From the NCBI GenBank assembly GCA_003220495.1, contig QHSP01000034.1:1-64000 (forward strand): a stretch of 64,000 nucleotides of DNA, in the 5' to 3' direction. Positions 43,108-43,557 of this stretch are shown here, one piece after another; the first letter of the stretch is position 1; each line of letters starts with the position of its first letter. The position numbers and the translations under genes are program-made. The stretch is from Candidatus Rokuibacteriota bacterium (lineage in GTDB: Bacteria > Methylomirabilota > Methylomirabilia > Rokubacteriales > CSP1-6). Under the pieces are notes generated by a model. It saw nothing but the letters and a program-made list of their open reading frames with translations. It made no database searches and was not told the origin of the DNA.

Positions 43108-43557
43108 TCACGCGATCCAGCGTACGACTCCAAGCAGCGCGGCGACCGCCGCGTGTAGAGCGTGGCCAGCGATTCAGAGCGGGCACGGCTGTCGGAGGTC
43201 GACGACAAGGGCGCGCACGAGGTAAAGTCCGACCAGCACGCTCGCCGCCGCCACGATCAGGTAGGGCCATGGCGCCGCGACGCGGCCGCTCACCATCCAC
43301 GAGAGGCCGAGGCCAAGTAGAGCCATGTTCCATACGATGCCCACAAAGACGTTCGGTGCTCCACCGAACAACCTGGCATAGGGCGTCTGCACGACGAGGG
43401 CGCAAGAGGACGTGTCGGCGCCGCAGCTCGTGAACAGGACCCCCAGGCGGTGGCGAAGCCCGGGCCACCGGCCAAGCATGAGCAACGTGAAGTAAAGATT
43501 GATGAGCAAAGCGGGGACTGTCAGCGCAACGAGGACGATCGCCAGTGCCACGGTCAT
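43108..43557 (-). CDS. VKOR-family thiol oxidoreductase, predicted selenoprotein (CPLU active site)
   Basis: Read through UGA at 43174-43176, the frame encodes 149 residues, the normal size of a one-domain bacterial vitamin K epoxide reductase homologue. TM1 is about 1-29; the loop pair Cys45 and Cys52 lies in FTSCGADTSSCALVVQTPYARLFGGAPNVFVGI, matching the family C..C..V..S....FG.P....G signature; TM2 and TM3 follow. The active-site CPLC motif is Cys125-Pro-Leu-UGA128, then IAGH, where relatives read CPLCWxxH, and a last helix ALHAAVAALLGVVRWIA. VKOR re-oxidises DsbA-like oxidases using quinone. Without read-through the protein would lose its resolving residue and final helix. A SECIS-like hairpin follows. 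Confidence 0.85.
43138..43153 (-). promoter_or_regulatory. Predicted bacterial SECIS hairpin for the VKOR gene
   Basis: CGCGGC pairs perfectly with GCCGCG around the loop GGUC; the loop begins 26 nt after the UGA. Loop sequence is identical to that of the MerB-like gene, while the stems and surrounding codons are unrelated. Confidence 0.7.

Follow-up and report, generated by a model that had tools for sequence, protein, structure and literature searches.

Candidate bacterial SECIS hairpins behind in-frame UGA codons predict selenocysteine in MerB-like and VKOR-like proteins of Rokubacteria

The DNA analysed here (the window) is a stretch of 64,000 nucleotides of Candidatus Rokuibacteriota, located on contig C57 (QHSP01000034.1) of a 5.98 Mb genome; all of the genomes that we compared are metagenome-assembled genomes (MAGs). 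Two genes of the window, both on the minus strand, run through an in-frame UGA (Table 1). The first encodes a protein of the alkylmercury lyase family, which matches the PF03243 (MerB) profile at 103.7 bits (cut-off 27) over a span that crosses the UGA and reaches residue 215. The second encodes a membrane protein that matches PF07884 (VKOR) at 46.4 bits (cut-off 27.5), so that the two genes are indeed unrelated, as the original prediction had stated.

Table 1. Features of the two UGA-containing genes of the window, and other UGA-containing frames located in the same genome (G000)
Feature	Sequence	Position	Strand	Remarks
MerB-like (alkylmercury lyase family) gene	window	3212..3883	-	UGA read-through, 223 aa, predicted Sec at 174
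Terminator of MerB-like gene	window	3214..3212	-	UGA
Predicted Sec codon of MerB-like gene	window	3364..3362	-	UGA; second catalytic Cys
Putative bSECIS apical hairpin of MerB-like gene	window	3349..3332	-	UUCUUCC-GGUC-GGAAGAG; loop starts 19 nt past UGA
VKOR-like membrane protein gene	window	43108..43557	-	UGA read-through, 149 aa, predicted Sec at 128, motif CPLU
Terminator of VKOR-like gene	window	43110..43108	-	UGA
Predicted Sec codon of VKOR-like gene	window	43176..43174	-	UGA; second Cys of CxxC
Putative bSECIS apical hairpin of VKOR-like gene	window	43153..43138	-	CGCGGC-GGUC-GCCGCG; loop starts 26 nt past UGA
Three UGSC-family genes with in-frame UGA	G000	L136:3461; L173:5418; L108:9447	+; -; -	
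Formate dehydrogenase alpha gene with UGA	G000	L168:5108	+	Rfam SECIS_3 match
One MoeB-like and four AhpC/TlpA-type UGA genes with hairpins	G000	L155:18997; L123:4099; L133:7976; L159:12633; L170:16912	-; -; -; -; +	
UPYC frame, thioredoxin-fold-like by eye	G000	L134:19584	-	CCAGC-GGUC-GCUGG hairpin at 22 nt

Each UGA occupies a position at which relatives encode a catalytic cysteine. In the MerB-like protein, the UGA lies in the local motif LUTTINFF and aligns with the cysteine of GTCKQIHYF in MerB2 (5c17); with selenocysteine (Sec) counted as the second cysteine, C110 and U174 align with the two cysteines of that protein, and D113 is the catalytic aspartate, as assigned by sequence. For the VKOR-like protein, the alignment partners of the UGA are a cysteine of Cys-type VKORs and the last cysteine in C-I-V-C of human VKOR (6wv3). 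Residues C45, C52, C125, and U128 thus make up the loop cysteine pair and the CxxC motif, if Sec is counted as the last cysteine, and H132, which is encoded past the UGA, is invariant across Sec and Cys VKORs. The predicted model of the protein is an all-helix bundle (mean pLDDT 89), and its best twelve Foldseek matches are all VKOR structures, with probabilities of 0.99–1.00 and E-values of only 0.04–0.24. The protein therefore resembles human and Synechococcus VKOR in its loop cysteine pair, in a CxxC ahead of the last helix, and in its predicted fold, but differs from both in having UGA at the second cysteine of the CxxC, and from Synechococcus VKOR in having no fused thioredoxin domain. 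A search of viral contigs for a relative of this VKOR found none.

Behind each UGA, the letters of the minus strand contain the GGUC-loop hairpin that had been predicted. The spacings of 19 and 26 nt given for them are correct as figures, except that they are measured from the UGA to the loop, rather than to the stem. Folded alone, the MerB hairpin (7 bp, unbroken stem) has an energy of −7.6 kcal/mol, and the VKOR hairpin (6 bp, unbroken stem) one of −10.8 kcal/mol. The consensus bacterial SECIS (bSECIS) has an upper stem of 4–16 bp, a minimum free energy (MFE) ≤ −7.5 kcal/mol, and a UGA-to-loop distance of 16–37 nt (PMC13188914). Both hairpins conform to it, with a 4-nt loop, a stem of 6–7 bp, a G within the first two loop positions, spacings within range, and an MFE ≤ −7.5 kcal/mol, which the MerB hairpin barely reaches; the claim that they follow bacterial SECIS rules is thereby borne out. 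So is the proposed likeness to the loop of E. coli fdhF, since almost every E. coli genome has TGACACGGCCCATCGGTTGCAGGTCTGCACC under fdhF. Like the window's hairpins, the fdhF SECIS presents a GGUC tetraloop inside the coding sequence, at a spacing of 18 nt after the UGA; unlike their unbroken stems, its upper stem has a bulged U. Neither the MerB nor the VKOR hairpin matches any SECIS family among the Rfam covariance models.

The genome that contains the window also encodes a selenocysteine machinery. It has a selB whose score is above the family cut-off, a gene for tRNA-Sec, and, between these two, a selA-like gene (named by eye from its sequence), as well as a selD that itself has an in-frame UGA, in the context SCAGU. 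We scanned 1.29 Mb of this genome for coding frames that run through a UGA with a hairpin behind it. The scan found three UGSC proteins, one MoeB-like and one TlpA-like protein, AhpC-type proteins, and a formate dehydrogenase (Table 1). It undercounts, since its filters passed over MerB, VKOR, and selD. By these finds, the selenoproteome of the window genome seems to be large. The UGA region of fdhA matches Rfam SECIS_3 with an E-value of 1.4e-9, under the gathering score, and serves as a useful positive control. A Pfam search of the UPYC frame returned no match. One further frame that passed, at L151:8196, was rejected because it is really two adjacent genes, for argininosuccinate synthase and 2-phosphosulfolactate phosphatase. 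A PCP_red-like frame at L148:12527 (plus strand), which also has a hairpin, continues for 25 codons across a UGA (FUQCKL) and is a weak case.

How much weight can be placed on the hairpins themselves? When regions of 71–73 nt were folded against shuffled sequences, they folded no better (z = +1.0 and +0.8), and whole-region folding energy was dropped as evidence for a SECIS because the z-scores were positive. Hairpins with any 4-nt loop are common in the window genome, where 205,865 coding codons gave 9,633 placements. Those with a GGTC loop, at least 6 pairs, and a spacing of 14–30 nt occur 78 times over the same codons, or 3.8e-4 per codon, and at so low a rate it is unlikely that two of two genes would carry one by chance, in agreement with the original prediction. 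By raw number, GGTC hairpins show no excess after TGA compared with after other codons, and conservation was therefore used as the test instead; we regard it as better evidence than hairpin frequency. A Cys-VKOR outside our contrast set (L017), whose hairpin of 9 pairs, closed by a UGG loop, lies at 31 nt, shows that hairpins by themselves prove little.

The original prediction had named sister genomes as the place to look, and there the UGA-containing MerB and VKOR homologues that we read keep the hairpin, whereas the Cys-encoding ones are without it. This VKOR-like gene is present in five of 95 genomes of the phylum, and every copy has UGA in CPLU. The four homologues from sister genomes, Candidatus Rokuibacteriota MAGs from the same genus and family as the window genome, are 78–86% identical to the window protein and have the UGA at the same codon. 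The UGA-containing MerB-like gene is widespread in the phylum. In all 23 of its UGA homologues the hairpin codons TTC TTC CGG TCG GAA are unchanged, as are CAC GCG GCG GTC GCC GCG in 7/7 UGA-containing VKOR genes, whereas conserved codons for Arg, Gly, Ala, and Leu outside the hairpins take several forms. In random draws of conserved columns, which treat columns as exchangeable and do not correct for the relatedness of the genes, such invariance arose with a frequency of ~1e-5 for MerB and ~2e-4 for VKOR.

The counterpart to this invariance comes from genes in which the UGA is replaced by a cysteine codon. None of six Cys-encoding MerBs has the hairpin; one of them (L034) even shares the peptide NFFRSE with the UGA genes, yet encodes it with CGG TCC GAG, which breaks the stem. 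Similarly, all three UGA-VKORs in the phylum of a MAG labelled as Acidobacteria carry the GGTC hairpin at 26 nt, while 13 Cys-VKORs of that phylum have neither a GGTC hairpin nor any other that has at least 6 pairs and a G early in its loop. Invariance at synonymous sites, together with this contrast between Sec and Cys genes, is the main sequence-based evidence for the function that we propose. Covariation adds one two-sided change in the VKOR stem and none in that of MerB, whose bottom pair is U.G, C-G, U-A, or unpaired, and never changes on both sides relative to the commonest pair. Because the stems are nearly invariant, a test for compensatory changes has little power. Two further observations concern MerB relatives: a paralogue family with UGA (L050–L062, L067; motif LUTGMNLFRSEEH), likewise widespread in the phylum, has the loops GGUC, GGGC, and GGGG, and one other gene (L066, in G093) has a UGA followed by an unrelated hairpin, UGCUC-GGUC-GAGCA, of different sequence and position.

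Outside Rokubacteria, the Acidobacteria-labelled MAG (L072) and a second genome from its phylum (L074) each hold a UGA-VKOR with an identical hairpin. Misbinning of a Rokubacteria contig is an unlikely source of these genes, because the genes flanking L072/L075 match those flanking L074, and are unlike those beside the Rokubacteria copies. A more distant VKOR, at L092:1402-1794 (G283), shares 30% identity with the window protein, and two in-frame UGAs replace both cysteines of its CxxC (NULLUMTGHALN). Its hairpin lies 26 nt past the second UGA, and its bottom pair is changed on both sides from C-G to U-A. The hairpin is thus identical in seven of eight UGA-VKORs, and the eighth differs by a compensatory U-A bottom pair. 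Judged by its sequence, the L092 protein is a possible candidate for a diselenide VKOR. All three of these further MAGs (L072, L074, L092) also encode SelB.

We conclude, with a probability of roughly 0.93, that both hairpins are bacterial SECIS elements and that Sec is predicted at the UGAs of the MerB-like and VKOR-like genes. This reading is favored because UGA and hairpin are kept together, because the Cys-encoding relatives are without the hairpin, and because the distant UxxU VKOR keeps it with a compensatory pair. Counting against it are the ordinary folding energy of the whole regions, the lack of an Rfam SECIS match for either hairpin, the near absence of covariation in the stems, and the lack of the fdhF-type bulged U. 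In the mechanism that we infer, SelB loaded with Sec-tRNA-Sec would recognize the hairpin, with its G-containing loop, in the mRNA just downstream of the UGA, and would deliver selenocysteine at that codon. Both proteins would then be made to their full length, with a catalytic cysteine replaced by Sec: the VKOR-like protein would have it second in the CxxC pair (CPLU), at the residue that faces the quinone in known VKORs, and the MerB-like protein would have it at the position of the second mercury-binding cysteine. The enzymatic roles of the two proteins are likewise inferred.

The identical GGUC loops had also been offered as an argument. They are present in both genes, as claimed, yet the argument turned out to be a weak one, since selenoprotein genes of the same genome use other loops. 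A lineage-specific SelB that requires exactly GGUC would account for the presence of this loop in all of the UGA-containing MerB1 and VKOR genes that we read, as well as in the UPYC frame. We nevertheless consider it unlikely, given that the genes found by the scan have the loops GUG, UGUAU, CGUGCU, GGAC, GGC, AGUUG, GUC, and AGGAA, that selD has GAUC (read by eye), and that the MerB paralogues include GGGC and GGGG. On account of these loops we reject GGUC as a genome-wide rule; with several in one genome, GGUC is one accepted loop, and not a fixed one.

It is much less probable that the UGAs are true stops, in two truncated or decaying genes with hairpins that arose by chance from GC-rich coding sequence. 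The frequency of any-loop hairpins in this DNA and the ordinary overall folding energy would be compatible with such decay; the persistence of the UGA and the exact hairpin codons across 23 MerB and seven VKOR genes, set against the variation at other synonymous sites, a frame that remains coding past the UGA, and the presence of the Sec machinery all argue against it. Least probable of all is that the UGAs are read through by near-cognate suppression or UGA reassignment, with hairpins that merely stimulate the process, as downstream hairpins are generally established to be able to do, because both genes also terminate in UGA, which therefore works as a stop here, and the internal UGA stands at a catalytic position that is Cys in homologues, in a genome with Sec machinery.

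Placing bacterial SECIS elements in these two genes extends a known RNA mechanism to targets, VKOR and this type of MerB, that appear to be new. A 2026 review catalogues 119 prokaryotic selenoprotein families or subfamilies, counting different Sec positions as distinct subfamilies; VKOR is missing from them, and MerB is present only as SaoL, with the motif CU (PMC13188914). The MerB-like protein resembles SaoL (NF040728) in belonging to the MerB family and in its predicted Sec. It differs in scoring 57.9 against the SaoL cut-off of 140, with a match that stops before the UGA, and in the motif around the predicted Sec, which is LUTTINFF at the second catalytic cysteine, compared with the catalogued motif CU. 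A search of the literature, confined to open-licence papers, returned no report of a selenocysteine VKOR. Priority for it may yet lie with a groundwater study in which a Methylomirabilota MAG was predicted to hold 63 selenoprotein genes (cited in PMC13188914). We think it probable that VKOR is a new selenoprotein family whose members, in soil Rokubacteria and in one or more other phyla, have Sec second in CxxU, with a UxxU form whose pair may be a diselenide, and that it is paralleled by a MerB subfamily with Sec at the second mercury-binding position.

Standard annotation would end both proteins at the UGA. The variety of loops in one genome implies that a single SelB accepts several loop sequences. 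A Sec MerB would suggest that selenium sits at a site where organomercury is cleaved. If true, a selenocysteine VKOR would bring Sec into a membrane enzyme whose reaction couples disulfides to quinones, offering a natural test of the role of selenium at that position.
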